Shown in pieces: positions 1,946 to 22,800 of a stretch of 64,000 nucleotides of DNA. The stretch comes from Flavivirga aquatica (GTDB lineage: Bacteria > Bacteroidota > Bacteroidia > Flavobacteriales > Flavobacteriaceae): contig NZ_MDJD01000034.1 in assembly GCF_001747085.1 (NCBI RefSeq), positions 248,001 through 312,000 on the forward strand. The letters run 5' to 3'. Position 1 is the stretch's first letter, and every line of letters starts with the position of its first letter. A program made the translations under genes and the position numbers. The notes under the pieces were generated by a model that saw nothing but the letters and a program-made list of their open reading frames with translations, did no database searches and was not told the DNA's origin.

Positions 1946-2775
1946 TTGGTATATATTAAATGAGGATTATCCAGCGGCGTTTTTCCTAGTATATGTACGC
2001 GTCTGAGATGTCTAGGAGCTCCTTTAGTAAAAGGCTCTCGACCATGTAATAACGTGTAATTATCGGTAAATACGATATCACCAGTTTTCCATTGATGCGT
2101 GTATAAATTTTCAGGGCTATAAAGTGCATTATTTAGATTTTTAATAAAATCACCAGCCTCCTGTTTAGGAATGCCCTTGAGTTCGAAACTAGGATGATTA
2201 ATAAAGCCGTCATCTTGGCTAGGTGTTTCGCAGTAACGAATTACAGAGAAATCTTTTTCAGGGTGTTTATTAATAATTGGAGCAATAGTTTTACTATCAT
2301 AATATTCCATTTTTCGCGAATAAATACAAGTTACTTTATCCCAATATTCTCGAACATTTTTTGGAATTCTCTCCAAAACCATTTTTGTATTGGTAAAAGT
2401 TGTTCCTCCTCCATTAGAAATACCAGGAGCGCTTACACAATGAAACACTTGGATTTCAGGAATTTGTTTTCGATACATACCGTCCCAGTGGAGAGGCATA
2501 TAGGTATTGTCATAAACATGGTCTTTGGGGTTGTCATGCTCAACAAGCTCTAAAACTTTTCCAAAAGGCCATAAACTAATTTCTCCAAATTTCTCGCAAT
2601 ATTCAGAAAAGTCCTCGGCACTATCAAAGCTTTTAAACCCTCTCAAAGAAATTATATGTTCATTAGATAAGATATCTTTTAATTCATCTGTATCTAAATC
2701 TCGAATATCCTCTTTTCCATTAACGGGTTCTATTAATAGACCGAATGGATTTAATTTTGTTATTTTAAAATTCAT
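1942..2775 (-). CDS. pvcB: Fe(II)/2-oxoglutarate oxygenase, PvcB/IsnB-like (TauD family)
   Basis: A 277-residue non-haem iron oxygenase. The metal-binding facial triad is visible as His96-x-Asp98 (PLHWDGM) and the distal His244 (TLLHGREPF), with the 2-oxoglutarate-binding Arg near 258-259 (RHLRRVH). Relatives next to isonitrile synthases perform oxidative decarboxylation or desaturation of the isocyano amino acid to an isocyanovinyl arene. The gene starts 10 nt after the isonitrile synthase stop and overlaps the flavin monooxygenase by 4 nt, so the three form one operon. PvcB/IsnB is favoured over a sulfonate-using TauD because of this neighbour. Confidence 0.88.
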   Translation of the reverse strand: MNFKITKLNPFGLLIEPVNGKEDIRDLDTDELKDILSNEHIISLRGFKSFDSAEDFSEYCEKFGEISLWPFGKVLELVEHDNPKDHVYDNTYMPLHWDGMYRKQIPEIQVFHCVSAPGISNGGGTTFTNTKMVLERIPKNVREYWDKVTCIYSRKMEYYDSKTIAPIINKHPEKDFSVIRYCETPSQDDGFINHPSFELKGIPKQEAGDFIKNLNNALYSPENLYTHQWKTGDIVFTDNYTLLHGREPFTKGAPRHLRRVHILGKTPLDNPHLIYTK

Positions 2776-2785
2776 ATTCTATTCT

Positions 2786-3793
2786 TTAATTCTGTGAAAT
2801 AAGTTCATAGTGACTTGAACGTCCATTTTCATCTTGTACTAATTTTGTGTTCAATTTTTTAGCTTCTTTGTTCTTCATTAGTATAAATTCTTTACCCGTA
2901 TTTACTGCTACTGCATGCCAAGGAGTTGTCCATGTCTCAATACCTAGGAGCTGGATTCCAATTTTTTGTGAACCACAGATCTGTGGATGAATGGATAAAC
3001 GAATGGCTTCAGGAAATTTTTCGGCAATCAAATCTGTCCAAGCATTACTTCTTATAATTGCTAAATAGGCTTTTTCTTTACATTCTTTTTGAATAGAACT
3101 TTTAGACCTTGTTTGTTCAGGGTGCATTAAATCTTCTACTAGAAAACGTGTAAGACCACAATACATACGATTAGCCTCTACCTCTTCTGGACTGTTTGAT
3201 CCTGTTCCTCCTTTTTTTACTCTATCTTTTAAACCGTCCAAATCTTGACCGTAACTATCTACAAGTTCGATACGGGCTTGATCAAAGTTATTGTTAACAT
3301 TTACATCATCGAGGTTAAAAGTAGAAAGAGCTGTTAGATCTAATTCTTTAATAATATCATCTATTTCAGCTTGATAAGCCGTTACATGTTTTTCAGAAAT
3401 CCCTACTACATCGCTAAAAACTCTACCGTCTGAGCATATAATGACAGCTGCTCCTGGTTCGTAAATTTCTTGAATTTGTTTGCAGAGATTATTTAAAAAT
3501 TTGAGGGCTTGTCTTTCTGCCATATCGGGAAGGTATCCTAAAACTTTTGCTGGGTTAGGAGATTTTCCTGGAAATGCAGGTAAGACAAATGTAATTTTCT
3601 TTTTTTGCATAATCGCCTTAGAAACTTTATCTATATGGGGCTTATGACATTTTGGACAAGTTGCAGAATCACAGCTATTTTCAGGATTTACCATTCTCCG
3701 AAATTTCAAAACTTTAGTCAGAATATCTCTAGCTAGACTTAAAGTTTCATCAAAATCAATAGGTTTACTTTGTTTGTTGTTTAAAATTTTCAT
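2786..3793 (-). CDS. pvcA: Isonitrile (isocyanide) synthase, PvcA/IsnA/DIT1 family
   Basis: A 335-residue member of the DIT1/PvcA family, which converts the amino group of tyrosine or tryptophan to an isonitrile using ribulose 5-phosphate as carbon donor. The hallmark block is clear: FVLPAFPGKSPNPAKVLG at 69-86, LPDMAE at 88-93, and PGAAVIICSDGRVFSDVVG at 113-131. C-terminal signatures RLSIHPQ and WTTPWH are also present. An N-terminal CPKCHKPH cluster resembles the Cys/His pairs common in the family. It is the first gene of the three-gene operon, with an upstream gap of 117 nt. Whether the substrate is Tyr or Trp cannot be read from sequence; the phenol hydroxylase-type partner suggests Tyr. 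Confidence 0.93.
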   Translation of the reverse strand: MKILNNKQSKPIDFDETLSLARDILTKVLKFRRMVNPENSCDSATCPKCHKPHIDKVSKAIMQKKKITFVLPAFPGKSPNPAKVLGYLPDMAERQALKFLNNLCKQIQEIYEPGAAVIICSDGRVFSDVVGISEKHVTAYQAEIDDIIKELDLTALSTFNLDDVNVNNNFDQARIELVDSYGQDLDGLKDRVKKGGTGSNSPEEVEANRMYCGLTRFLVEDLMHPEQTRSKSSIQKECKEKAYLAIIRSNAWTDLIAEKFPEAIRLSIHPQICGSQKIGIQLLGIETWTTPWHAVAVNTGKEFILMKNKEAKKLNTKLVQDENGRSSHYELISQN

Positions 3794-8127: not shown

Positions 8128-8218
8128 CAAAAATTCAGTTTTGGTTACTTGCTTTGAAAAAAACGATCGATTAAGTTAATATCCCAATTAGCAAAAACTC
8201 AGATCCCAAGTAATCGAT

Positions 8219-9165
8219 ATGTTTAAATCAAATTATAGAGAAAGTATATCATCGACCTGTGAGTTACTTGGGATTAGTAGGCAGGTGCACTACAGAGCTA
8301 TTCGTTCTAGAGATAAACGACAGTCTACAGCAGACAACGTCATTGAACTGGTTAGAGAGGTGCGTATGGAGATGCCCAGAATAGGCGCTCGCAAGTTGTA
8401 CCATCTTTTAAAGGTACCTCTAAGAGAGTTAGGAGTTGGAAGGGATAGGTATCTTTGCTATTCTAAAAGCCAACCATATGCTTATAAAACCTAAGAAGAG
8501 CTATCACCTGACCACCAATTCCCATCATCGTTTTAGAAAGCACAAGAACCAGATAGAGGATATTGATATCGTCAGACCGGAACAGGTATGGGTATCAGAC
8601 ATCACATATATAGGGACTAGACAAAATCCGATGTATTTATCATTGATTACAGATGCTTATTCTAAAAAGATTTTAGGATATTATGTTATCCAATACCCTA
8701 GAAACAAATAGTTCTATTAAGGCTTTAAAACAAGCTATAAATAATAGAAGCTATCCTAAAGAAGCATTGATACATCATTCCGATAGAGGGCTACAGTTGT
8801 AGTAATGATTATCAAAAACAACTTAGTAAAATCAAATTTAACTGTAGCATGACGGAGCAATATGATCCTTATCAGAATGCCATAGCAGAACGCATTAATG
8901 GTATCTTAAAACATGAATTTTTAATGAATACGGATAAGGTTGATATAAATATGATGAGGAAAATAGTAGCTCAAAGTATTAAAATATACAATACTAAAAG
9001 ACCGCATCTATCCTGTAATTTGCTAACACCAGAACAAATGCATAAACAGAATGAAATCAGACCAAGATCATATAAAAGAAAAAACACTGAAGAGTTGCAA
9101 CTCTGCAGTTTTTAAATTATTTTTAAACTAATCTAAAAACTGTAACGCTATTTCAGGACTAGTCA
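8219..9165 (+). mobile_element. Decayed IS3-family (IS150-like) element, orfB only
   Basis: Transposase fragments follow each other in shifting frames. They include an HTH-like start (ELLGISRQVHYRAIRS), a middle with the first catalytic Asp (VWVSDITYIGTRQNPMYLS), then IHHSDRGLQ with the second Asp, and NAIAERINGILKHEF with the Glu, so the DDE set can be followed. At least three frameshifts are visible, near 8445, 8690 and 8802. The segment at 9131-9165 (ctaaaaactgtaacgc onward to gtca) looks like the right terminal repeat. No orfA and no matching left repeat is seen, so the left end is deleted. It cannot transpose by itself. Confidence 0.85.
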
Positions 9166-9254: not shown

Positions 9255-12200
9255 TTATTCAATAACGATTTTTTGGATATGTTTTTCACCTATTTTAGTT
9301 GTTACAGTTACGATATACATCCCTGTAGGTAATGCGTCAACTGATAACTGGTATTTTGAATTTTTTGTATCAACAGTTATAGATTTTACAGTTCTACCAA
9401 CTAAACTAACTACATTAATGTGGGCTCCTTTTAAACTAGAATCACTCTCAATAGTTACCGTAGTTTTTTTAGATTGATTTACAGGATTTGGATATAGTCT
9501 TATAGTATTATTTTTAGTTTCAGTTTGAACTTTTTCAGAAGATTTGGCTGAATCTTCCCCAAAAAAGAAGCCATACTCTGCATTAGCTAATGCAACTTCT
9601 ATTTGTGCCCAACTTCTGTGGTAGTTTTGTGTAAAAGCTTCTCCAGCATCGTATGCTGCTTTTAATCTAGCATATTCTGGATCATCCTTGTATTTAGAAC
9701 GAATATCGAGGAAACTAACTCCTGGTTGAATAAGGTCTCCATTTGCCATAACACCAGAGTATCCAGCTGGAATGTATACTTCTTGATCAAACATTCTGTT
9801 GAAATCTTCTCTAATTTCTGTTGAAGATACACCTTTGGAATCTCTATATTTAATCCACATTCTATCTAGAATTTCTTTTGCTAATGTTTTTGCTCCATTA
9901 TCAAGAGTTCCATATTTTTCAGTAGCTGCAGCATAATAAATTAAAGTTTTTGCTGTTGAGGCCGCTATACCAAGATCTGTATTGTATGATGTTACTGTTA
10001 CACTAAGGTTGTTATTAGCACCAGGACTTGCGGGATTCCAGGTATCTGGTTCTCCAGTCCATTCTAATCCAGCAGGAATTAGGAAATCATCTGTACCAAC
10101 AAGTTGAACGATTCCTTCAACCCAAGTTGACCATTTATCCATTAGTGTTTTTGCAGTAGGGTCGTTGGTAATATAATAGTATTCAGCTACACGTTCCATA
10201 GACCAAGCTTGCCATCCAAACCATGTTCCACTTCCTGGATCAAGATAAACAGGGTTAGTATCGAATGCCATATCATAGAAAGTAGACTTTCCAGAAGGGT
10301 AAGTGCTATAATCACCATTCCAACTATTTGTAGCTCCACCTGCTATAGCACCTTCTTTAGATTGTAGGTATTGGTAGAATTCCATTTGTCTTTCTAAACT
10401 ATCTCCCCAATCACGTTTTCCATTTGTTGATTTTGGTGCGAATTCATTTAGTTGAGACATCGCATAGGCTGCAACTGGATTTTGATATCCAAAATGACAA
10501 TGACTTGAACTAATTCTAAAAGCCCAAGGTGCAGAAGTATCGGTGGCTCCTCCCCAAGAAACATACCAAGACATTAGGTAATGTGCACTATCGTAACCTG
10601 TTCCAGCCCCAGAAGTAGCACTTTGAACGCCCATAGGTTTAAAATACTTGTCAAACATGGATAATCTTAAATAATCACCCATTTTTGTGGCTTTATTTAA
10701 TAATGTTCCATCGATAGTTGTACCCTGTTCTTTGGCATATTCTACAGCCCAATACATAGCTTGTACAGCTCTTGCATCTGCATCTGGAGCACTTGTGTAA
10801 CGCCATTGTTTTGCGTAGTTATTATCATCTATAAATATAGGTAAGAACCCATTTGTTCCTCCCCAATTAAAGCCTTCCCATGATGGGTGCGGTACTGTTT
10901 CGAAAACAGATTCTTGTGGTCCTCTTTGAAAGGTATTAATATATGATGGGGTACTAACACCATCTCCACGATTTCCATAACCGTAGAAGTTATCATTATC
11001 TAATAACCAGTGCATTTGATAAATATCTTCACCATATGCTGCTGTAAGTTCTGGAGACACAGGGTCTATACCAACTGGAGCGCTTAGGTTAAGTAGAGCA
11101 GGGTAGTTCTGTGGTAAAGGAAGTTCGCCAGCATATCCTGCTGGTGAACTAGGATTGTAAGCACTATTTGTTGGTTGATCTGCTTTAGTAGGAATAATTA
11201 ATTCCTCTATTTTATCCCATACGTTAGCAACAGGAGACCAGTCGTTAGTAACACGACCATTCATGACTTCTAACCATAACCAATACGAATATAACTCAGA
11301 TGTAGACTCATGACCATAGTCTGGAGCTTCTACTATTAATGTCTCTATAGAATGGTGAGGTGATCCGTCTGGACTAAAATAACCATTAGCAGGATCTAAG
11401 AATTTGCTACGCATTTCTACGAAACGATCAATATATTCATTGTTTGTAGGTGGTGGAGGTGTAATACTACCAGTAGAAGTGATAGATACAGAAGCGGTAT
11501 CTGTACCACCATTACCATCACTTACAGTTACAGTAGCAGTAAAAGTATTTGCCGTAGTATATGTGTGGCTAGTAGATGCACCTGTACCAGAAGTACCATC
11601 ACCATAGTCAATAGCATAAGTAAGCGTATCTCCATTGGCGTCTGTACCAGAAGCTGTGAAGTTTACTGCCAAAGGAACTGTACCAGAAGTAGGTGTTGCT
11701 GTTAAGGTTGCAACAGGCGGTGTATTTGTTGTCGAACCACCACAATCTGGAGCTGTAGCAGAATCACTAAAATAAATACTGTGACTCCCTGTTTTAGATA
11801 CGATAGCAAAATTGCTACCATCTTTTGTAACCCAATAATTACCATCAAGTCCACTAATTCCAGAGCCACTTATTGTAAGCTCAGGTTGCGCAGAATTAAG
11901 GTTTTTAGTGATTTTAGGTAATAAATTTACATACCAACTAGGTTGCCCGTTGTTGGTATTAAACGAGAATTGGTATAAACCATTGTTATTTAAGTTCCAA
12001 TTAATAGTAAATCTGTGAACGTTATCAAGATTAGGACCACCGCTACCAAGTACGTGAATATGATTATATGATTGTTTGATAGTACTAAGCGAAGTTGCTA
12101 ATGGTGTACCAAAAGTACAGTCACCTCCTGGAGGATTTGTACTACCAATTGTATTAATAAATACCGAAGCAGTATCTGTACCACCATTACCATCACTTAC

Positions 12201-14327
12201 AGTTACTATTGCAGTATAAGTTCCAGTTGTAGTATACGTATGACTAGAAGTGGCTCCTGTACCAGAGGTACCATCTCCATAATTAATTGTATAGTTAAGT
12301 GTATCTCCATCGGCATCTGTTCCAGAAGCGGTAAAAGTTACTGAAAGAGGAGCTATTCCATTAGTTGTTGATGCTGTAAGAGATGCTACAGGAGCGTTGT
12401 TTGTAGGGACTTGTGTGCCATCTGACTCATTTCCAAAAACTAATACACCATCATCATATACTGGAATATTAATACTCTCTACATCTGAAGAATTATTAAG
12501 TCCAGCCGCAGACCAATCGTTAGATATGTCGTATGGCGTACCATTTTTCACTCTAATATTCAGTTGCGCTTCTCTTCTAAACTGAGGATCTCCAACTGGT
12601 GCTATTTGCTCACCAAGCATAGATACTTCTGCATAATATACAGAACCATTCCATTGATTTATTGTTAGAGAACTACTTCCTTGTACCGAGTTTAGTTGAA
12701 TGTCGTAATCTGCAATAGTTTTTCCTGCAGCTATACCTTCAGAAATATCAAAGAAATATCTAAAAGATAATTTATCTGTAATACGTGCTGGCCAAGCAGT
12801 TCTATTTTGAACTAAAACCCTAATAGTACTTCCATATTGGTTATTATTATTGAATTTTGCTATGGTACGAACCTCAGATCGTGTTGGAGTTTCTTGAATA
12901 GGGAAGTTAGATAATGGAGCACCTCCGTATTGAGAATACATTTTAGCTAAAGCACCTGTAAGTCCTGCATTATAATCGCAAGCAACTTCATTAGCTTTAA
13001 AATCACCTCTGTCATCAACGAATTGATCATTAGGTGCTGCAGGACCACCAGCTAATGCGCCATATAATATATGACTTGGTAGTACTGGTCGATCAATTAA
13101 AGTATTTGCCCATGGACCATGTGCCGATCTGTGGTGTACATTATTAGCTGGATTGTTACCAAAACCAACCATGTAACTTCTGTTAATAGGATTGTCTCCT
13201 AATGCATAATTAATTTGTTTAACAGCAAAATCATGATACTTTGTTTTATTAGCAGCAGAAGTGTTTACTTTATCACTATATATAAAAGCTAAAAAAGCTG
13301 TATTGGATGAGTGACGTAAAGAACCCCATTCTGTTAAGTGAGCTTGTCCACCTGGACTATAAGAAATTCTCTGTCCATTGTATCCACTAGTCCAATAATC
13401 TAGATGACGCTCTGCATCTGTCATGTATTGTGCATCTCCAACAAGTTGAGACATTAGTACGTAGCAACCATAAGATTTGTCGTCCCATGCGATTCCCCAT
13501 TTATATGCTTTTACATTCTCACCTTGTTGATTACTAAGGTTAGCATATTCAGTTTCTGCCTTGGTAAGGTAAGAAGGTGTATTAGTGGCTCTATATAACC
13601 ATGCAGCTCCCCAAACTAATTCATCTTGGTAACCACTAAAAGACCTATAATATCCTCCTACATCTGTAATAGCATCAGAATACTTTCCTCTATAAGAGTC
13701 TGCAAAATTATAAAGTTCAATAGCATGCCTTTTAAGTAAATTGCTATATGCTGGATCATCTTCAAAAACAATACTAGCGGCTGCTAAGGCTGCTGCTGTT
13801 TCTCCAGCCAAATCTGAACCTGGAGCGGAGGTATCAATTTTGTAAGCGGGTCTTGCTGGAGGATAAACTTCTGGAGCTCCCCAATAGGCATGATCTAAGC
13901 CTCCATTTCCTACTTGACCCCATAGTTCATTTGGAGCTGTATGACATTTTACAAAGTAATCGCATACAAAACGTAAATTTCGTTTTGCTATATCAAGTTG
14001 TCCACTTTGAATATAAGCATCCTTATATTCAATGATTCCCCAAGCTAGCATAGTAGTGGAAAATGCCATTGGAAAATTAAATTTAACATGATCTCCAGCA
14101 TCGTACCATCCGCCAGTTAAATCGTGTCCTACATTACTGCCGTCTTTAAGGGCAGAATTTCCTCGCCATTTTACGCGGTTCCAACTGGGTAATTCACCAG
14201 ATTGCTGGGCTTCATAAAAGAACCACGATTTTTGTAGTGCTTCTCCATAATTAAAATTTTGAGCAGTTAGCTGATTAATGTTAATTGCTATTAATAGCAA
14301 AAATAGTTTTAATGGGTTGTGTCTCAT
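9255..14327 (-). CDS. Secreted multimodular cellulase: GH9-CBM3-PKD-X-PKD-GH48-T9SS sorting domain
   Basis: A 1690-residue exported enzyme predicted to cut crystalline cellulose by pairing a processive endoglucanase with a reducing-end cellobiohydrolase. Signal peptide 1-22. GH9 domain about 25-468: Asp76 and Asp79 in WYDAGDH, HHR at 398-400, and acid Glu447 in [13 protein letters not shown]3 (3c-like, fused as in theme-B GH9 enzymes) about 483-636. PKD 643-727. A module of about 130 residues (733-862) that I do not recognise. A second PKD 867-952. GH48 about 961-1591: acid Glu1007 in [10 protein letters not shown] and the [10 protein letters not shown] motif at 1180-1189, which holds the base Asp. 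T9SS sorting domain about 1607-1690, starting LYPNPV and ending in [10 protein letters not shown] and KIVIE. The layout recalls CelA of Caldicellulosiruptor. The gene stands alone between fossil strips, which suggests acquisition by transfer. Confidence 0.93.
11472..12401 (-). repeat. Two near-copy PKD modules inside the cellulase gene
   Basis: The two PKD-encoding segments (11472-11729 and 12147-12401) are close copies. Both encode [21 protein letters not shown] and [14 protein letters not shown], and they share long blocks at DNA level, for example CTGTACCACCATTACCATCA in both. The unknown module lies between them. This points to an internal duplication used as a linker around a captured module. 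It is also a possible site for recombination that would delete the module. Confidence 0.85.
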
Positions 14328-15034: not shown

Positions 15035-15237
15035 GCCCAAAAACTATTTACACAAAAATGTCTATACCGCAACTAGAAAACGTTTGCAAGACATTTTAAT
15101 ACGTTTCCAAAAACATACATAGCCTTTAGTGGAGGAAAAGACAGTACAGTTATGATGCATTTGGCACTTAAAGTAGCAAAATCAGAAAATTGTTTGCCTT
15201 TTAATGGCGTTACCGAATTAGATGAAGCAAATGGATA
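15035..15237 (+). pseudogene. Remnant of a PAPS-reductase-like ATP-pyrophosphatase (IbrA/DUF3440-like)
   Basis: The plus strand reads NYLHKNVYTATRKRLQDILI, then after a one-base shift FPKTYIAFSGGKDSTVMM and HLALKVAK, before ending at a stop. SGGKDS is the pyrophosphate-binding P-loop of PAPS reductases and related N-type ATP pyrophosphatases. The NVYxATRKRLQ start matches the IbrA-like branch. Only the first 65 residues or so remain, in two frames. Confidence 0.65.
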
Positions 15238-15500
15238 GTGTCTTAACTAATTATAAATTTATAAGAGTAGGGCGAGATGATGGAAAAGCATTAGGAGAGT
15301 ATTCTGCATTTTTTATAAAAAATATAAATTTTAAGGCACTAGAAATAACTACATTTTGATTTTCAGAAACACTAAACAAAGTCTCCATGGGTTGGGCTTA
15401 TGCTTTATTTGAAGAAATAAAAACTAAAAATAAATTCTGAGTATTTAATACCCATTTTGACCATGTTGGTAAGCCGTCAAGGTAGGAAAGCCCTAAAATT
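15225..15500 (+). pseudogene. Remnant of an endonuclease/exonuclease/phosphatase-family protein
   Basis: The plus strand reads MDSVLTNYKFIRVGRDDGKA and LGEYSAFFIKN, a stop, FSETLNKVSMGWAYALFEEI, a stop, then VFNTHFDHVGKPSR. The phrases VGRDDG...GEYSAFF and FNTHFDHVG are conserved blocks of this nuclease/phosphatase fold; the latter His and Asp are normally catalytic. It follows directly on the PAPS-reductase-like remnant in another frame, so a deletion has joined two unrelated genes. The middle of the family is missing between the two blocks. Confidence 0.65.
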
Positions 15501-15522: not shown

Positions 15523-16953
15523 TCATTGATTTATAAAAGGCATTTTTTCACTATCTTTAATTCTTTCACTCTTAAAAAAAACTGTAGGATTTTCTTTTGA
15601 GCGTATTTGCTCTATCCAATAAACACCATCAAAAGGGTGACTGTTACCGCGTGTATATACAAAATCTAAATCTCCATCTTTATCCATATCATAAGCGATA
15701 AATTTATCATACATTCCCCTTTTTCTTCTCACGATAGGGTGAAAAATCCATTTTTTTGATAGATTAGTAGGTTGCTCAAACCAAGCAAGACTTCCTAAAT
15801 GATCATTAACTGTTACATTTCCATCTTTTGTTCTTGCACCTTTGCTATAACTACCTACAATGATATCCATTAACTGATTACCATTAATGTCAGCAGTAAC
15901 AAAACCAACTAAAATATCAGGTGATATTGAACCTATATTATGAGGAATCCATTCTTTAGAGAATATGGGTGGCTGTTCAAGCCAAATCAAATTTTCTTGA
16001 TTATCCTTTATAATGATGTCTAATAAAGTATCTTTATTTATATCATAAAAGTCAAGGTTAAAACCTGAAACCTCAACGTTAGGTAAGTTTAAATTGGCTA
16101 TTTTAGAAATATTAATATTATGTGCTTGGAATTGTATGGAATCTTGACTAATATTTTCCATTAAAACAATTCGATTCTCACCTCTAGACCCAACTAATAT
16201 GTCTAAATCCCCATCATTGTCAATATCTATTGGTTGAGCGTTAATTGGAACCAATACATTTAATAAAACCGTTTCTTTCCAAGAGCTATTATTTAAAGGA
16301 TTACCTATTATCTCAAAGTAAGAAATAGGTTTAGGAGTGGCACCTTTAGCATATCCAGCCTGACTCCCTTTATTAGCAGTAATAATTTCTGATTGTCCAT
16401 CTTTATTCAAATCTGCTGTAAATACTCGAATAAAGGAACCTCTGTTTTTAGTGATTTCAGGTATAAGTCTTTTCCAATAATGTGTTCTTATATTTTTGCC
16501 AGGATTTTCAAAATAGGTGATATGCGATAATTCACAAGCAGCTATGATATCTAAAAACCCGTCTTTATTAAGATCTACAACGGCTACATCTTCTATTCCT
16601 CCAACTTCCTGACCTTCTCCAATAGTTGTTAAATAAAAAATATCTGGATCATTACTGCCAAATGCGATTCTTAAATGCCCTCTTGGAATTCCATCATATT
16701 TCCAGTCTGATTCGTGAACAGAAATAATATCTTCAAACCCATCCATATCAATATCAGCCATTACCAACCCATCTCCACCACTAATCTTATTTCCGCTTAA
16801 TTCATAGTCATCAATTGTATGCTCTTTCCAACTTATATAATTTGATTCTGATGATTCTTTTTTGTAAGAATTACAATTCAAAATAGAAAAGCTAATTATT
16901 AAAATAAATATAAGTAGTATAGGTTGTTTCAAAATAATAAACTTTATTCCCAT
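15523..16953 (-). CDS. FG-GAP/VCBS-repeat lipoprotein, predicted beta-propeller
   Basis: About 476 residues from the ATG at 16953. The longer frame would need TTG at 16968, so I prefer ATG. A hydrophobic signal ends in a lipobox (FSILNC), so the protein is probably anchored to a membrane by its N-terminal Cys. The body has repeated Ca-binding FG-GAP motifs such as ADIDMDGFEDII, VDLNKDGFLDIIAA, ADLNKDGQSEIITA, IDIDNDGDLDILVG and YDMDKDGDLDFVYT, typical of a seven-bladed integrin-alpha-like propeller. It overlaps the GH127 stop by 10 nt and is the last gene of the carbohydrate operon. Similar proteins sit in Bacteroidota polysaccharide loci; a glycan-binding or enzymatic role is possible but not shown. 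Confidence 0.85.
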   Translation of the reverse strand: MGIKFIILKQPILLIFILIISFSILNCNSYKKESSESNYISWKEHTIDDYELSGNKISGGDGLVMADIDMDGFEDIISVHESDWKYDGIPRGHLRIAFGSNDPDIFYLTTIGEGQEVGGIEDVAVVDLNKDGFLDIIAACELSHITYFENPGKNIRTHYWKRLIPEITKNRGSFIRVFTADLNKDGQSEIITANKGSQAGYAKGATPKPISYFEIIGNPLNNSSWKETVLLNVLVPINAQPIDIDNDGDLDILVGSRGENRIVLMENISQDSIQFQAHNINISKIANLNLPNVEVSGFNLDFYDINKDTLLDIIIKDNQENLIWLEQPPIFSKEWIPHNIGSISPDILVGFVTADINGNQLMDIIVGSYSKGARTKDGNVTVNDHLGSLAWFEQPTNLSKKWIFHPIVRRKRGMYDKFIAYDMDKDGDLDFVYTRGNSHPFDGVYWIEQIRSKENPTVFFKSERIKDSEKMPFINQ

Positions 16954-18989
16954 ATAATTGGTAACCAAACAGTCATTTCACTTAATCCTCTATTTGCCCA
17001 TGAAAAATAAGGTATAAATTTAGTCTTTACAGTTTCCCACTCTGGTTTTTTTACTTCATAATACATACCGTTGGTTTTTTCTTTACGTAGCTTAATATCT
17101 CCTGAAATAGTTGTAACACCGCCTAATAAATTAGGAATATAATTTGCTTTTAATTCTGATGATTGCGGTAAATAAATATCTAAAATTTTTGAATACTTAG
17201 GAAGGTCTGTTGATTCAGCACAATAAACAATAGGGCCGCGTTTGATGGCTACTTGATTGCGTACTTCTTCAATTTCTGAATGTCCTCCAATTAATTTGAT
17301 ATCCATTGGCATATCTAGAGAAACTGAATCTCCTTTTTTCCATTTTCGATTAATAACAGTAAATTTACCAGGTGTTATCTTAGAGACAGTCTCCATTCCA
17401 TTTACGGTTATCTTAGATCCAGTAGCCCATTCCGGAATTCGAAGCATTAAATCAAATGGTTCTTTCTTACACTTGTTTATTGTAATATTAATTTTTCCTT
17501 TCCAGGGATATTGTGTGCTTTGTGATAATTTAAGTTCTGAGCCATCTAGCATTTTTGTATTAAGTTTATTCCCTCCATATAAATTTACAGCTACGCCATT
17601 TTTAGATAGACTATAAGCCCACCCAGAAACTTTTGCGATAGTACGTACAATGTTTGGTGGACAACAAAAACAATCTAAATATGCTTGACGTTGATGATCT
17701 TGTTTATGTATTTGATGCGCTTGTTTATCATTTTCATCTACAGTTGTTTTTCCAGAAATTGCTCGTAGTGGGTTTTGATAGAAGTAGTTCTTCCCATCCA
17801 CACTTATACCTGAAAGTGCACTATTTAACATTACTAATTCCATAATATCTGCATATTTAGACTCTCCTTTTAAACCTAACATTCGCCAATTGAACATAGC
17901 ATTTCCAATATTAGCACAGGTTTCACAATAAGCACTTGCATTTGGCATTGCATAATCAGCATCAAAGGCTTCATGAACCATATCTCCATACCCATAAGCA
18001 CCATGGTCTACTTGACCGCAGGCACCAGTTATATACATCTTTTTATCTACCACACTAGCTCTTATCTTCTCTAAAGCATCTAATAAAGCTTTCTCTCCCG
18101 TTTCAGCATAAACATCTGCAGCTCCTGAATATAGGTATAAAGCTAATACTGCATGTCCCACTGCTTCCGTTTCTTCACGTAGAGGGGTTCTATCTTGAAA
18201 AGCATCTCCGACAAACCAAAATGGCACAGAAGAATGATCTGTTCCCCATTTCATTTTTTCTTTCCCTCTATTATTAATAAAGATCTCAGACAATTCTAAA
18301 TATCTTTTATCTTTAGTTGTTCGGTACAATTCTACTAATCCCATAATTTGAGACGGATTAAATCCAAAATGGACTAATTCTTCAGATGGAGACTGAAAAA
18401 TATTATACAAATTATCAGCGTGTTTAATAGCTATATTTAGAAAATTAGTTTTACCCGTAATGCGATTATGAATACACGCACTGGTTAATAAATGTCCACT
18501 ATTATATAATTCATGATTTGTGATTTTTGAAAATGGCTCTATTTTTCTAATTTGTATATGTGTAGATAGGTAACCGTTATCTTCCTGTGCTTTGGCTATA
18601 ACTTCAATAATTTCATCAAGCTCATTATTTATTTTTTCATCTTTGTTTTGAGCATAGACATACATAGCAGATTCCATCCATTTGTAAAAATCGCCATCGT
18701 GCCAAAGCTTTCCTTTTGCTTCTCCTTCTTTTAATCCAGCAGCAATTTTAAAGTTATTGTATGCATGACCAGTATCACCTTTTAAAATAGTTCCCATATG
18801 AGGAACCATGGTAGATGAACAGACATTAAATTTATCAGCCCAAAAACCTTCAGTCCATACGCAATCTCCAATGTTAATACTTTTTAGCTTTACATTGGGA
18901 CTATCTGAGTTATTTGCTATTCCATGTAATTGAGCATGTGAATAACCAATCGTAAGAAGTGTAGAGATTATTGTTATTAGATTTTTCAT
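16944..18989 (-). CDS. GH127-type beta-L-arabinofuranosidase-like glycoside hydrolase (DUF1680 family)
   Basis: A 681-residue enzyme with a signal peptide (1-19, ending SHAQ). It keeps the zinc-thiolate active site of GH127: Glu356 and Cys358 in YCETCAN, and Cys442-Cys443 in CFCCPPN, where the first Cys of the pair is the nucleophile in HypBA1. The alpha/alpha-barrel signatures (GHAVLALYLYSGAADVY, MYITGACG) are present. The lack of a T9SS domain suggests a periplasmic location. It sits between a GH2 gene (52-nt gap) and the FG-GAP lipoprotein. The substrate may be beta-L-arabinofuranosides or another sugar, since related families act on other residues. Confidence 0.87.
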   Translation of the reverse strand: MKNLITIISTLLTIGYSHAQLHGIANNSDSPNVKLKSINIGDCVWTEGFWADKFNVCSSTMVPHMGTILKGDTGHAYNNFKIAAGLKEGEAKGKLWHDGDFYKWMESAMYVYAQNKDEKINNELDEIIEVIAKAQEDNGYLSTHIQIRKIEPFSKITNHELYNSGHLLTSACIHNRITGKTNFLNIAIKHADNLYNIFQSPSEELVHFGFNPSQIMGLVELYRTTKDKRYLELSEIFINNRGKEKMKWGTDHSSVPFWFVGDAFQDRTPLREETEAVGHAVLALYLYSGAADVYAETGEKALLDALEKIRASVVDKKMYITGACGQVDHGAYGYGDMVHEAFDADYAMPNASAYCETCANIGNAMFNWRMLGLKGESKYADIMELVMLNSALSGISVDGKNYFYQNPLRAISGKTTVDENDKQAHQIHKQDHQRQAYLDCFCCPPNIVRTIAKVSGWAYSLSKNGVAVNLYGGNKLNTKMLDGSELKLSQSTQYPWKGKINITINKCKKEPFDLMLRIPEWATGSKITVNGMETVSKITPGKFTVINRKWKKGDSVSLDMPMDIKLIGGHSEIEEVRNQVAIKRGPIVYCAESTDLPKYSKILDIYLPQSSELKANYIPNLLGGVTTISGDIKLRKEKTNGMYYEVKKPEWETVKTKFIPYFSWANRGLSEMTVWLPIIWE

Positions 18990-19041
18990 GTGGTTCTAAT
19001 TTATTTAGTTTTCATTGCTTTATATAATTAACAAGCACGTT

Positions 19042-21600
19042 TTATTCTATGTTAAATAATAATTTCTTAGATTCTTTTATATCATTACTGGTTGCTGTAA
19101 TAGTTAAGGAGGATTCCATTTTTGTTGCTTGTAACACAAGCAAGCATTTACCAAATTCAGTTGTAACTGTTTTATTTTTAAAGTTGTTTATTTTGGCTGA
19201 GTTTCCACAGTCTGTGCCTAAAAATCTATATAAACCTTCTATTTCAAAAGTTATGTTTTTATCTACATTTTTAACTTCACGTCCGTTTTTATCAATCAAT
19301 TGTGCAATTACATGTAAGACATCAGTATTATTAGCAGTCATATTTTTTCTATCAGGACTTAGACGAATTGCTACAGGATTACCAACTGATTCTAAGTAAG
19401 TTTGTACCTTTAATTTTCCTTTGACTCCTTTAGCAACAAGTTTTCCTTTTTTATAATCTACAGCCCATTTAAAAGTACGATCATCTTGGTCTTTTAAATA
19501 TTGTTTTCCCAATGATTTTCCATTTTGAAATAATTCTACAACTTCACAATTTGAATACACTTCAACTATTGTAGCTTCACCATTTTTATAATTCCAGTAA
19601 GGATTCACATCTTGCCAGGTACGTGGCGCAAGTTTCCAATAGTCTTTTTCCTTTTCAATTACACCACGTTTTTTATCATTTCTATAAATGGATTTTTCTT
19701 CAGTTTGTGAGTAAATAGATATTACTGCTTCATCATTTTTCCATAAAGATTTAAACATATAGTATGATGCCCGAGGGAATCCTGCTAAATCTAAAGGTCC
19801 ATCAACAGTTGCTTTAAGTGGCCAATGACTAGATCTACGTTCGCCTATATAATCAATTCCTGTCCATAAAAATAACCCAGGAATAAAATCACGATCAATA
19901 ACTGCTTTCCATTCATACCAACGAGGTACATTTTCAGTTCCCATCATTGGTTTATCTGGATAGGTTTCTTTGAAATAATCATACTTATGGGGTTTATAAC
20001 TAAGCCCAATAACATCTAAAGCATCCGTATATCCATTTTCAAAGCTAGAAGTTGGCAATATACAATTAGCCGTTACAGGGCGACTTACATCCATCTCCCT
20101 TGTCCATTGAGCTAATTTTTGAGCTGTATTTTGAATATAAAAAGTTTGTTTTGGGAAATTCTCCCAGTATTCTCGAACCTGTTTGGGTGTATGTGGTGGA
20201 ACTACAGTTCGCCAAAGTGTCCAATCTATTTTGTCATCTTTGTTTGTTTCTTTGAATATACCTGTTGCACCACGGTTTCCAGGATACGTCCATTCTATTT
20301 CATTTCCAATACTCCACTGAAAAACACTAGGGTGGTTGCGACTAGAAAGCATAGTATTTTTTAAATCTTTTTCAGCCCACAATTGAAAATGCTCCGAATG
20401 TCCACGTGTAATATAATCAACCTCTTTATCGTGCATATTATATCGTTTGTCTTTTGGTAAATCCCACTCATCATAAAACTCATTTTGTACTAAAATCCCA
20501 AGTTCATCACATAAATCTAAAAACTCATCAGAAGCTGGATTATGTGCTGTTCGTATAGCATTACAGCCTCCATCTTTTAATTTTTGCAAGCGTCTTTTCC
20601 ATACATCTTTAGGAACAGCTGTTCCAACCAGTCCAGCATCATGATGCAAGCAAACACCTTTAATTTTCATATTCTCATCATTCAAGAAAAAGCCTTTATT
20701 TTTATCGAATCGGATGGATCGTATACCAAATCTTGTTGTTCGCTTTTTAGATGCCTTATTGTTTGCTATAATGTAAGTTTTAGCAGTATATAAATGTGGA
20801 GATTCCAGTTTCCACATTATGGGTTTTGAAATTTGTACGTTTTGAGTAACAACTGAATCCTTATTTTCATTTAAAGAAAAAGGATTACGTATTGTTGTTA
20901 CTTTAGTATTTTGCATATCAAATATTTCACTGATAATTGCCCCCTTTTTAATAGTTGAGGTGTCATTTTTTAGCGAGACCTTGATTTCCACAGATGCACT
21001 TTCGTTTGATACTTTTGGTGTTGTAATAAAAGTGCCCCAAACAGGGATATGCAATTTATCAGTAATTAAAACATGTACGTTTCGGTAAATACCTGAACCC
21101 GTATACCAACGCGAGTCGGCATATCTGCTGTGATCAACACGAACCGAAATCCTATTCTTTTTTCCCTTTGGAGCAAGTAGGTTTGTTAAATCATAATAAA
21201 CTGGGGCATATCCGTAAGGGTGATTTCCAATTCGTATTCCATTTATCCAGAATTCGGCATTGTTATATATCCCATCAAATATTATATAAAACTTCTGATT
21301 TTTATTGATTTTGGTATTAAACATTTTACTATACCAGCCAATTCCACCTGGTGTAAACCCGGTACAACCTTCTAAATCTTGCGAAAAACCTTGTTCAATT
21401 GTCCAGTCATGTGGCACATCAATTTTTTGCCAATTTTTCGGTTGATAGTTTGTTAGACTATATTCTACTGAGTCGGATAAAGTAAAAATCCAGTCATTAT
21501 TAAAATTTTCAAGACCATTGTTTTGGGCTGTTCCGTTAAAAACTACAGTAAAAAAAAAGACTTGAATAAAAAGAGTTTTAATTTGTTTAAATAATACCAT
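19042..21600 (-). CDS. GH2-family glycoside hydrolase (beta-galactosidase/beta-glucuronidase type)
   Basis: An 852-residue periplasmic enzyme with a signal peptide (about 1-25, ending GTAQ). Domains in order: N-terminal sugar-binding jelly roll (about 30-180), immunoglobulin-like domain (190-295), TIM barrel (300-600), and C-terminal beta domains. The general acid is Glu434 in SIGNEIEW; the nucleophile is probably Glu556 in MMGTENVPRW. The motif GGCNAIRTAHNPAS (344-357) is typical of GH2. No T9SS domain is present. It lies 6 nt downstream of the GH88 gene and is clearly co-transcribed. Pairing with GH88 suggests work on uronic-acid-containing oligosaccharides. Confidence 0.92.
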   Translation of the reverse strand: MVLFKQIKTLFIQVFFFTVVFNGTAQNNGLENFNNDWIFTLSDSVEYSLTNYQPKNWQKIDVPHDWTIEQGFSQDLEGCTGFTPGGIGWYSKMFNTKINKNQKFYIIFDGIYNNAEFWINGIRIGNHPYGYAPVYYDLTNLLAPKGKKNRISVRVDHSRYADSRWYTGSGIYRNVHVLITDKLHIPVWGTFITTPKVSNESASVEIKVSLKNDTSTIKKGAIISEIFDMQNTKVTTIRNPFSLNENKDSVVTQNVQISKPIMWKLESPHLYTAKTYIIANNKASKKRTTRFGIRSIRFDKNKGFFLNDENMKIKGVCLHHDAGLVGTAVPKDVWKRRLQKLKDGGCNAIRTAHNPASDEFLDLCDELGILVQNEFYDEWDLPKDKRYNMHDKEVDYITRGHSEHFQLWAEKDLKNTMLSSRNHPSVFQWSIGNEIEWTYPGNRGATGIFKETNKDDKIDWTLWRTVVPPHTPKQVREYWENFPKQTFYIQNTAQKLAQWTREMDVSRPVTANCILPTSSFENGYTDALDVIGLSYKPHKYDYFKETYPDKPMMGTENVPRWYEWKAVIDRDFIPGLFLWTGIDYIGERRSSHWPLKATVDGPLDLAGFPRASYYMFKSLWKNDEAVISIYSQTEEKSIYRNDKKRGVIEKEKDYWKLAPRTWQDVNPYWNYKNGEATIVEVYSNCEVVELFQNGKSLGKQYLKDQDDRTFKWAVDYKKGKLVAKGVKGKLKVQTYLESVGNPVAIRLSPDRKNMTANNTDVLHVIAQLIDKNGREVKNVDKNITFEIEGLYRFLGTDCGNSAKINNFKNKTVTTEFGKCLLVLQATKMESSLTITATSNDIKESKKLLFNIE

Positions 21601-21606
21601 AATTTT

Positions 21607-22800
21607 TTATTGCTTATTTTTAAACATTTTAATTTGCAGTTTTTTTAAGCGTATAAGTGCCTCAATAAAATAGTAATCGGCATAATTAATATTTACATTA
21701 ACTTCTGAATTTATTGGTTTGTATCCAACGCTATGCAATAAAACACATGAATAATTGTCTGTTTTCGCTAAGTACTTGTCCGATGCGAGCTCATTTAAGA
21801 TACTTATTGCTTGGTTATAATACATTTTCTTTTCTGTAAGTTCGAATAATTCTAAGCAGGCTGAAGCTACAATAGCCGCTGAAGAGGCATCACGGGGTTC
21901 GTTAGGTATATTAGGCGCATTAAAATCCCAATAAGCAATATTATCAATGGGTAAGCTTTCAAAGTATGTTTTTGCTAGATTTTCTGAGGTTTTTAGATAT
22001 TTTTTAATGGCTGTTTCACGATACATCATTATAAATCCATAAATGCCCCAAGCTTGCCCTCTTGACCACATAGAATCATCAGCAAAACCTTGAACAGTGG
22101 ATTTATTTTGAACTTTGCCTGTGTTAGGGTTATATTCTACTAAATGATAGGAGCTGAAGTCTTTTCTAAAATGATTTTTTAAAGTAGTATTTGCATGATT
22201 ACGTGAAATTTTATCAAATTTTTTACTTCCTCCATTTTTAGATGCCCATTCCAACATTTCAAGGTTCATCATATTATCTATAATTACCTTATGTGTTTTT
22301 GGGTTTTTCTCATTAATATCTCCCCAAGAGAGTATTGTTTTTGTTGTTGGGCGATATCGAGTAGCTAGTGTATTAGATGTTTGTAAAATAATTTCCTTAT
22401 AGTTTTTATTTTGTGTTAAACGATATCCATTTCCGTAACTACAATAAACCATAAAACCAATATCATGGTGCTTATTAAAAAGCTTTAGGGGTTCTAAAGG
22501 TGCCGTCCATTTTTGAGCAGCTTTTAACCATTTTTCATTTTTACTATTTTCATATAAATACCATAATGTACCTGGGAAAAAACCGCTAGTCCAATCTTCA
22601 ATAGGTTTTTGATTCCAACTTCCATCAGAATGACCGTTTCTTGGCATCCCGTTTTCAATTTTTAATTGATTTATAGCCTTTTCATACTGAGATTCTGCAA
22701 ATAATAGGACTTCATCTGGGTCGAATTTCAATAAAACTTGAGATTCAATTGTATGAGAAAAACAATAAAGGATGATTAATAGAGCTTTTTTTCTGTACAT
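21607..22800 (-). CDS. GH88 unsaturated glucuronyl hydrolase
   Basis: A 397-residue enzyme with a signal peptide (1-20, ending IESQ). It hydrates and removes the 4,5-unsaturated uronic acid left by polysaccharide lyases. The two active-site Asp residues are Asp113 (HHDIGFMVY) and Asp175 (VIIDNMMNLE), 62 apart, as in Bacillus UGL (88 and 149). WSRGQAWGIYGF and RDASSAAIVAS are also family blocks. It heads the operon with GH2, GH127 and the FG-GAP lipoprotein. Its presence implies that a lyase acts earlier, as in ulvan or glycosaminoglycan breakdown, but no lyase or SusCD pair lies in the window. Confidence 0.92.
   Translation of the reverse strand: MYRKKALLIILYCFSHTIESQVLLKFDPDEVLLFAESQYEKAINQLKIENGMPRNGHSDGSWNQKPIEDWTSGFFPGTLWYLYENSKNEKWLKAAQKWTAPLEPLKLFNKHHDIGFMVYCSYGNGYRLTQNKNYKEIILQTSNTLATRYRPTTKTILSWGDINEKNPKTHKVIIDNMMNLEMLEWASKNGGSKKFDKISRNHANTTLKNHFRKDFSSYHLVEYNPNTGKVQNKSTVQGFADDSMWSRGQAWGIYGFIMMYRETAIKKYLKTSENLAKTYFESLPIDNIAYWDFNAPNIPNEPRDASSAAIVASACLELFELTEKKMYYNQAISILNELASDKYLAKTDNYSCVLLHSVGYKPINSEVNVNINYADYYFIEALIRLKKLQIKMFKNKQ

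Follow-up and report, generated by a model that had tools for sequence, protein, structure and literature searches.

Within the window (the whole 64,000-nucleotide stretch of Flavivirga aquatica DNA analysed here), one gene encodes a protein that joins a GH9-CBM3c head to a GH48 tail ending in a type IX secretion system (T9SS) sorting domain (CTD). The new finding is that the GH9 heads and the GH48 tails of this protein family have conflicting histories. We consider it very probable, taking both parts together, that the protein is a T9SS-exported bifunctional cellulase, surface-bound or released, and that it combines a stable GH48 half with a repeatedly exchanged GH9-CBM3c head.

Gene, modules and catalytic residues

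The gene is an uninterrupted open reading frame (ORF) at 9255-14327 on the minus strand, with an ATG start and 1690 amino acids. In order it encodes a putative signal peptide, GH9, CBM3c, PKD, UKD (127 residues), PKD, GH48, and the sorting domain:

9255..14327, minus strand: predicted GH9-CBM3c-PKD-UKD-PKD-GH48-CTD cellulase, 1690 aa (ORF and Pfam)
14262..14327, minus strand: putative signal peptide, residues 1-22 (read by eye)
12942..14255, minus strand: GH9 catalytic module, residues 25-462; D76, D79 and E447 at catalytic positions
12426..12890, minus strand: CBM3c-like module, residues 480-634, joined to GH9 as in Cel9A
12162..12401, minus strand: PKD module 1, residues 643-722
11742..12122, minus strand: UKD/CBM113 module, residues 736-862 (match to CelAly UKD)
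11487..11726, minus strand: PKD module 2, residues 868-947
9558..11444, minus strand: GH48 catalytic module, residues 962-1590; E1011 and D1182 at catalytic positions
9261..9497, minus strand: T9SS type A C-terminal sorting domain, residues 1611-1689 (Pfam and NCBIfam)

All the domain modules that the preliminary description had named were recovered by profile searches. Pfam places GH9 at residues 27-460 (501 bits) and CBM_3 at residues 494-568 (31.9 bits), together with two PKD matches, all above the curated cut-offs; GH48 at residues 965-1589 reaches 950 bits against a cut-off of 25. These scores rule out a chance match or a wrong frame. The T9SS domain is likewise borne out, by Por_Secre_tail PF18962 of Pfam (residues 1611-1689, 40.5 bits against 27) and, in agreement, by NCBIfam TIGR04183 (36.7 bits against 23). 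The NCBIfam equivalog CbhB (NF041611) scored 849.4 bits, under its cut-off of 1950. The module once called unknown proves to be UKD/CBM113, whose structure was solved in 2026 from the flavobacterial CelAly and which there binds PASC, Avicel, and alginate (PMC13235733): residues 736-862 match PDB 9KVN, the UKD domain of CelAly, with 160.8 bits and 60% identity. The window's UKD keeps the aromatic cellulose platform (Y/W/Y at CelAly Y50/Y63/Y64) and carries H/K/K at the alginate residues R36/K100/K110 of CelAly, which are poorly conserved (R36 in 28 of 149 UKDs, K100 in 10 of 149).

The catalytic residues said to be visible in both enzymes are indeed in place when aligned with solved structures. 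GH48 E1011 and D1182 align with E55 and D230 of Clostridium cellulolyticum Cel48F, and GH9 D76, D79, and E447 with D55, D58, and E424 of Thermobifida fusca Cel9A, all of which we take to be the catalytic residues. Key GH48 residues are thus retained: equivalents of E1011 and D1182 occur in 99 of 100 aligned rows, the remaining row being gapped. For GH9 the counts are 83/84 for D76, 83/84 for D79, and 84/84 for E447, with one row gapped at D76/D79. Among what we presume to be tunnel residues of Cel48F, W298, W310, and W417 have equivalents in 100 of 100 GH48 rows; W312 is replaced by F in the window's GH48 and in 61 of the 100. Measured against Flavivirga jejuensis, dN/dS is 0.126 for the GH48 part and low too in GH9 (0.137) and UKD (0.107).

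The GC content of the gene is 37.6%, against 30.8% for the window, and two decayed fragments lie beside it, the first just downstream and the second upstream:

8190..9110 (approximate), plus strand: decayed IS3-type transposase, orfB-like, in several frames and with stops (six-frame reading, by eye)
15090..15250 (approximate), plus strand: decayed fragment resembling a PAPS-reductase family protein (six-frame reading, by eye)

The former is assigned to the IS3 type by its motifs.

Distribution of the fusion and its relation to CelA

GH48 had been thought rare in Bacteroidota, and it is: a match above cut-off was found in 3 of 395 genomes sampled evenly across the phylum, this genome included. 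A 2018 paper states that Bacteroidetes genomes are without GH48 (PMC5831590), and possession of the family has been described as the mark of a true cellulose degrader among bacteria (PMC7565076, accessible part). This genome is not alone in carrying the fusion. One collection scan gave 73 relatives, 58 of them from Bacteroidota, and the GH9-GH48-CTD fusion is present in 44 of these 58 loci, with Aquimarina, Tenacibaculum, Flammeovirga, and Reichenbachiella among the genera. The preliminary description held that many described homologues in the phylum would refute its claim of novelty; homologues are many as sequences, but no description of the Bacteroidota fusion was found in the accessible portions of the literature on GH48. 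The 125 GH48 ORFs above a 600-bit filter came down to 97 distinct ones (left out by the filter: L130 and one of the fragments into which the L052 gene is broken). The other of the two L052 fragments lacked the length needed for the GH48 tree, and the fragments were kept unjoined. L136, L140, and L141 were exchanged for the longer stretches L158-L160; the GH48 of L058, identical to that of L157, was merged with it, L058 still being counted among the 58 loci; and L010, cut by a contig end, was scored neither fused nor split.

GH9 and GH48 are adjacent separate genes in several basal Bacteroidota, and also in Chloroflexota, Hahella sp. HN01, and a Cellvibrionaceae strain; in the Fulvivirga loci of the relative set they are unfused. 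A separate fusion of Fulvivirga type in Reichenbachiella (L036) was considered and rejected: the 56-row group, to which the Bacteroidota fusions belong, includes the GH48 of L036 as a nested member, so that the GH48-PKD-UKD order of this locus looks like a rearranged tail. Further modular genes occur at some loci: immediately downstream, a GH5-PKD-UKD-CTD cellulase gene follows the fused gene in L012 and the GH9 gene in L156, and in L006 and L021 the fused gene has another GH9-...-CTD gene next to it. Plasmid carriage was rejected, a GH48 match being present in 6 of 72,556 plasmid records, and only one of these records, the megaplasmid of Persicobacter sp. JZB09, belonging to Bacteroidota. This megaplasmid encodes GH48-PKD-PKD-CTD, and GH9 is absent from the 17.9-kb stretch.

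The label CelA-like survives for the layout and fails for descent. CelA (CbCel9A/Cel48A) of Caldicellulosiruptor bescii also has an N-terminal GH9-CBM3c and a C-terminal GH48 in one secreted chain; it differs in having two CBM3b between the halves where the window's protein has PKD-UKD-PKD, besides its T9SS sorting domain, and in its host, a thermophilic Firmicute. That the fusion is a true CelA descendant, gained whole from Firmicutes and fitted later with PKD/UKD and the T9SS tail, would account for the matching module order and for CbCelA (4el8) being, among solved structures, the one that the GH48 matches best, at 60.1% identity. We regard this as highly improbable. In the GH48 tree, CbCelA grouped with clostridial GH48 (99*; one CelA sequence in the trees). 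An AU test rejected CbCelA and the 56-row group as one GH48 clade (p 8.5e-5), and with it CelA ancestry. Moreover, the window's GH9 scores 609 bits with T. fusca Cel9A and 475 bits with CbCelA, the former being its closer relative, and the two genes are neighbours in the four groups named above. Judged by the GH48 phylogeny, the resemblance to CelA is convergent.

For each catalytic module there are solved structures of relatives with 55-60% identity. The best for GH9 is T. fusca Cel9A (E4, 1js4), 55.0% identical over 596 columns of the GH9-CBM3c unit, although its solved chain has neither GH48 nor a T9SS tail. Cel48F (1f9o) and the Hahella GH48 (4fus) are 57.1% and 59.6% identical to the window's GH48 and have the catalytic positions in common with it, but the matched chains are GH48 alone, and in Hahella sp. 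HN01 the GH9-CBM3 is a neighbouring gene, not fused. CelAly of Aquimarina sp. 2-A2 (GH5-PL31, UKD/CBM113, T9SS CTD; PMC13235733) shares the UKD, the CTD, and the marine flavobacterial multimodular design; it combines a cellulase with an alginate lyase, whereas the window's protein combines two predicted cellulases. Where that paper speaks of GH48, which it does twice, it refers to an enzyme of Caldicellulosiruptor and to the reference for it. T9SS-linked multimodular cellulases are also known in Bacteroidota from 'Candidatus Paraporphyromonas polyenzymogenes' (PMC5831590, accessible part).

Conflicting histories of heads and tails

The GH9 and GH48 trees (of the 'quick' type, without bootstraps) conflict. 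On the GH9 tree, AU tests rejected two GH48-defined groups, chosen after the trees were seen, with p 1.2e-6 and 1.3e-90. Bacteroidota yield 192 pairs, not independent of each other, whose GH48 identity is at least 88%; GH9 identity is below 80% in 103 of them, and in 0 of 18 such pairs outside the phylum. The 59 'Bacteroidota' rows of this count are GH48 proteins with CTD or UKD and include the MAG L052, which is without phylum assignment. On the GH48 tree of 54 rows, GH9 type changes at least eight times. Three of four pairs inspected show a jump in identity at the CBM3-PKD border. Beyond that border, the identities of L017/L019 fall and then rise (PKD1 83%, PKD2 54%, UKD1 60%, UKD2 86%), so that a single clean break is unsupported. 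In L006, the neighbouring genes have in common a 1195-bp block with one mismatch, reaching from the last CBM3c bases to the end of UKD. Short-read assembly across this repeat may affect the block itself and the head swap between L006 and L021.

The conflict could also reflect ancient paralogy with differential loss (two ancestral GH9 genes), or misassembly, rather than exchange. The second GH9-...-CTD genes of L006 and L021 speak for this, as does the near-identical repeat of L006, which could mislead an assembler; we find it possible, though rather unlikely. Separate assemblies (L017/L019, L026/L029) show the two deep GH9 types in fusion with GH48s of 90-91% mutual identity, which means that the gene joined to the head must have changed, and no pair outside Bacteroidota shows the discord. 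In the relatives, as far as sequence can tell, tails look stable and heads exchangeable. The GH48 half would have been inherited fairly stably within a marine Bacteroidota family, and the GH9-CBM3c head exchanged repeatedly, probably via recombination in the PKD/UKD array common to neighbouring genes. Our confidence is evenly balanced for the fuller account as a whole, that is, a stable T9SS-exported GH48 tail, GH9-CBM3c heads recombined through PKD/UKD, and a fusion that arose, independently of the CelA fusion, from neighbouring genes such as Bacteroidota and Chloroflexota still have.

For the window's own head, the signals point to a replacement with moderate strength. Its GH9 forms a long branch in the GH9 tree; the AU test rules against placing it as sister to the GH9 of F. 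jejuensis (p 0.025), and a four-row group with F. jejuensis, L008, and L142 is compatible with the data (AU p 0.095). Against F. jejuensis, dS is 0.57 for GH48, 0.98 for FtsK, and 1.62 for GH9, a pattern that agrees with a foreign GH9 head, a single housekeeping gene being a thin yardstick.

Proposed function, substrate and significance

We infer activity, export, and substrate from the modules. The signal peptide would take the protein across the inner membrane and the sorting domain, via T9SS, across the outer one; SprA, the T9SS translocon and the one component searched, is present in the same genome (2774 bits). The flat aromatic platform of UKD, as in 9KVN, would anchor the protein to insoluble cellulose and perhaps to alginate-rich algal wall. 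GH9-CBM3c would, by analogy with Cel9A/E4 and CelA, act as a processive endoglucanase opening chains, and GH48 would act as a processive cellobiohydrolase on the chain ends so made, with the PKD modules as spacers. Constructs of CelA GH9/CBM3c and GH48 showed synergy on crystalline cellulose (PMC3865294, accessible part).

It is improbable, in our view, that the protein acts on chitin or some other polysaccharide instead of crystalline cellulose. The idea draws on papers accessible in part: GH48 is listed among chitinolytic families (PMC10535946), and Fulvivirga GH48 genes were counted under chitin in a study of three strains with one GH48 and one GH9 each, of which one degraded chitin and none cellulose, all three being cellulose-negative by DNS assay (PMC10113389), a result that also weighs against the cellulase reading. 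Against this, GH9, CBM3c, and UKD are cellulose modules, the GH48 shows 57-60% identity to bacterial cellulases of known structure, the three Cel48F tryptophans are kept in every row (though W312 is F here), and relatives have GH5 neighbours.

A T9SS-exported GH9-GH48 in several marine genera would supply the phylum with the classical endo/exo pair for crystalline cellulose, and the fused enzyme would mark candidate marine degraders of algal and tunicate cellulose. The conflict of heads and tails makes module exchange between cellulases directly testable in named strains, and enzyme studies would find ready material in the natural variants of the head that sit on one tail. If true, head swapping would let one polypeptide do by evolution what the cellulosome does by assembly.

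The genome's only GH48 and UKD matches are in this protein, as is its only strong GH9 match (506 bits; the second reaches 33.5 bits); there are two GH5 matches, and a search for LPMO_10 found none. One might read the gene as a remnant about to be lost, its host no longer using cellulose, given the degraded transposase on one side and the degraded fragment on the other (both by eye), the absence of GH5 among the neighbours examined, and the single UKD match. This too seems improbable: the 1690-codon frame is open, the catalytic residues are kept, and dN/dS is 0.107-0.137 in three modules.

Modules and catalytic residues of the fused cellulase

The subject of our analysis is a single open reading frame:

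9255-14327, minus strand: GH9-CBM3c-PKD-UKD-PKD-GH48-CTD cellulase, 1690 codons without interruption

The GH9, CBM3, two PKD, GH48 and T9SS C-terminal sorting (CTD) modules assigned in the preliminary description are all found by Pfam above curated cut-offs. The sorting domain is also confirmed by NCBIfam, in which the equivalog CbhB scores 849 bits (cut-off 1950). The module there called unknown lies between the PKD modules and can be named: this 127-residue stretch has a single PDB match at E ≤0.001, 9KVN, the UKD domain of flavobacterial CelAly, proposed as family CBM113 (PMC13235733). An N-terminal hydrophobic stretch, read by eye, resembles a signal peptide.

The GH48 module aligns over its full length with those of Caldicellulosiruptor bescii CelA (CbCelA) and Hahella and with Cel48F, and the GH9 module with T. 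fusca Cel9A, on through CBM3c. The catalytic residues said to be visible in both enzymes fall into register: E55 and D230 of Cel48F correspond to E1011 and D1182, and D55, D58 and E424 of Cel9A to D76, D79 and E447, all of which we take to be catalytic positions. Both GH48 positions are kept in 99 of 100 rows (the remaining row is gapped), and the GH9 positions in 83, 83 and 84 of 84. Cel48F W298, W310 and W417 are retained in all 100 GH48 rows; the W312 position is F in the window and in 61 of the 100. By the Nei-Gojobori method (own script), comparison with Flavivirga jejuensis locus L005 gives a dN/dS of 0.126 in GH48 and 0.107 in UKD; for GH9, compared with L156 of the same species, it is 0.137. 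The enzyme is real and intact and is probably active.

For the CelAly UKD, PMC13235733 gives Y50, Y63 and Y64 as important for cellulose and R36, K100 and K110 as possible alginate-binding residues. The window UKD has Y, W and Y at the former positions and H, K and K at the latter. Among 149 distinct UKDs from the fetched loci, Y or W occupies position 50 in 148 and positions 63 and 64 are aromatic in 149 each, while R36 occurs in 28, K100 in 10 and K110 in 118. Because the aromatic positions are near-universal and R36 and K100 rarely kept, cellulose binding, not alginate binding, looks like the general UKD trait; alginate binding by the window UKD is possible, yet would be no family rule.

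Distribution and literature

GH48 is as rare in Bacteroidota as had been supposed: with each sample's central genome included, it exceeds the cut-off in 3/395 genomes of an even phylum sample, 4/397 of the family sample, 11/390 of Reichenbachiella's order and 20/301 of a Chloroflexota sample. A scan of named genomes, which favours close relatives because its six peptide patterns were taken from the window's GH48, gave 73 GH48 loci (L-numbers), scored as fused or unfused with our own domain profiles. Fifty-eight are from Bacteroidota: 44 are fused, every one with a CTD; nine have GH9 and GH48 as adjoining genes; and five have GH48 alone or are undecidable (L005, L049, L051, L058, and L010 at a contig end). 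The other 15 comprise Chloroflexota (5, of which 3 fused), Pseudomonadota (5), Bacillota (2), Bdellovibrionota (1), a Verrucomicrobia MAG and an unassigned MAG (L052, tandem, broken frame).

Close GH9-GH48-T9SS homologues, which the preliminary description had set against novelty, are thus many as sequences, but none was found described. Our search covered full-text literature and hardly subscription papers, preprints or CAZy, so an earlier description is possible; as far as the literature was searched, the fusion is common to many sequenced relatives, yet undescribed. It is likewise not described in the parts seen of PMC5575103, PMC6247017, PMC4928363, PMC3966224, PMC10535946, PMC13386854, PMC11653725 and PMC13070388, and a text search of PMC5707792 and PMC7565076 for Bacteroid* gave no match. 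PMC5831590 reports the absence of both GH6 and GH48, in line with other Bacteroidetes; PMC10113389 lists one GH48 per genome, under chitin, in three Fulvivirga genomes, all three strains being cellulose-negative; and PMC3865294 treats CelA synergy. As a multimodular GH9/GH48 cellulase the window enzyme is of a known kind; what is new is its setting, namely T9SS, CBM113 and marine Bacteroidota.

Giant proteins of 2182-2331 aa by stop-to-stop frame (L045:10468-17457, L046:10480-17472, L054:11350-17895) adjoin GH9/GH48 pairs and carry PKD and UKD modules. That of L045, the only one scanned with Pfam, has cytochrome c, MauG-like, PKD, CBM3 and CTD modules; such proteins are possible secreted redox partners in cellulose attack. 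In Saccharicrinis aurantiacus, one protein (L059:5712-10904) with two tandem GH48 modules and a weak CTD match adjoins a GH9-CBM3-CTD gene.

Origin of the fusion

In a GH48 tree of 99 rows (IQ-TREE quick, LG+C20 PMSF) the Bacteroidota form one 65-row group (support 94, not starred), Verrucomicrobia MAG included. CbCelA falls together with two clostridial rows and Cel48F (99*); an AU test rejects its placement within a group of 56 rows that unites flavobacteria, Flammeovirga and Reichenbachiella (p 8.5e-5). GH9-CBM3 and GH48 genes are neighbours on one strand in the basal Bacteroidota L054, L055, L056 and L059, and also in Hahella sp. HN01 and a Cellvibrionaceae strain. Nine of 12 Chloroflexota stretches (L143-L154) have the two genes adjoining on the same strand, GH9 lying upstream in seven and downstream in two; L146 is fused and L154 has the genes on opposite strands. 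Fused Chloroflexota enzymes are L060, L065, L070 and L146; L060, the only one scanned, has a CBM2 in the middle. The whole tree requires a minimum of 8 switches between the fused and unfused states, with at least 5 within 63 Bacteroidota rows and at least 4 among 55 of the rows in the 56-row group. The simplest reading would be repeated fusion, perhaps also splitting, of a conserved GH9/GH48 gene pair.

The Verrucomicrobia MAG protein (L057:5268-12317, a 2350-aa frame) has its GH48 inside the Bacteroidota group, by either transfer or misbinning.

Signs of head exchange and the history of the window gene

The GH9-CBM3 tree (84 rows) holds two deep types of head (the GH9-CBM3c half) that sit on closely related GH48 tails. 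GH48 and GH9 identities are 90 and 55% for L017/L019, 91 and 55% for L026/L029, 93 and 56% for L006/L021, and 96 and 76% for L020/L023. Three of these four inspected pairs step sharply at the CBM3-PKD border (CBM3 to PKD1 42 to 83%, 42 to 80% and 41 to 89%, respectively), the step in L020/L023 being gentler (63 to 74%). Beyond PKD1 in L017/L019 identities dip and recover (PKD2 54%, UKD1 60%, UKD2 86%), so the PKD/UKD array has itself been reshuffled and the profile falls short of one clean break. The GH9 tree rejects two GH48-defined groups (p 1.2e-6 and 1.3e-90); they were picked after the trees were seen, a practice against which the note to the test cautions.

Among 1711 non-independent pairs from 59 fused or tandem Bacteroidota rows, 192 have GH48 identity of at least 88%; their GH9 identity is below 60% in 73, 60-80% in 30 and at least 80% in 89. 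For 15 other rows, GH9 falls below 80% in 0/18 such pairs, and the rank correlation of GH9 and GH48 identity is 0.87 versus 0.20 in Bacteroidota. The reverse conflict is absent: all 82 pairs with GH9 of at least 88% have GH48 of at least 80%. On the GH48 tree the type of head switches a minimum of 8 times across 54 rows, of which 20 are type A. We see in this a sign of GH9 head exchange in the Bacteroidota fusions, which was unexpected.

In L006 a standalone GH9 gene and the adjoining fused gene have 1195 bp in common with one mismatch, from the last CBM3c bases through the UKD end, and differ in their GH9 heads; L021 has the same two heads in the opposite arrangement. Head exchange via the shared array is plausible here, with the reservation that short-read assembly can go wrong across a repeat of this kind.

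The window GH48 is sister to that of F. jejuensis L005 (100*, 87% identity). Its tail looks vertically inherited, since its divergence (dN 0.071) is close to that of FtsK (dN 0.080; 87.5% identity over 798 aa). F. jejuensis is unfused: UKD-PKD-GH48-CTD (L005) and GH9-CBM3-UKD-CTD (L156), the latter next to a GH5 gene, lie on separate contigs of 933,891 and 408,865 bases, respectively. The window GH9-CBM3 is 72% identical to L156 and 73% to Flammeovirga L042; the window and F. jejuensis GH9 are rejected as a sister pair (p 0.025), but not as members of a wider group that also takes in L008 and L142 (p 0.095). A new head in the window gene and an old split are both possible.

Downstream of GH9 genes in two relatives lies a further cellulase:

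L012:10329-12752: GH5-PKD(-PKD)-UKD-CTD cellulase immediately following the fused gene, Aquimarina
L156:10448-12646: GH5-PKD(-PKD)-UKD-CTD cellulase immediately following the GH9 gene, F. jejuensis

The genes scanned next to the window's fused gene include no GH5-PKD-UKD-CTD cellulase. The Flavivirga aquatica genome (4.64 Mb, 54 contigs) has one GH48 match, one UKD match, two GH5, two GH9 matches of which one is strong and the other weak, SprA, and no match to LPMO_10. By eye, the cellulase gene is solitary between decayed DNA, with an apparent IS3-type transposase remnant downstream and a decayed fragment upstream; about 1.2 kb of decayed-looking DNA separates it from the first of these rows:

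15523-22800, minus strand: successive genes for an FG-GAP protein, GH127, GH2 and a GH88-like protein, upstream on the cellulase's strand
467-3793, minus strand: DIT1_PvcA (isocyanide synthase-like), TauD-like dioxygenase and FAD-binding hydroxylase, consecutive

The latter trio resembles a small gene cluster for an isonitrile natural product, presumably of the paerucumarin/rhabduscin type.
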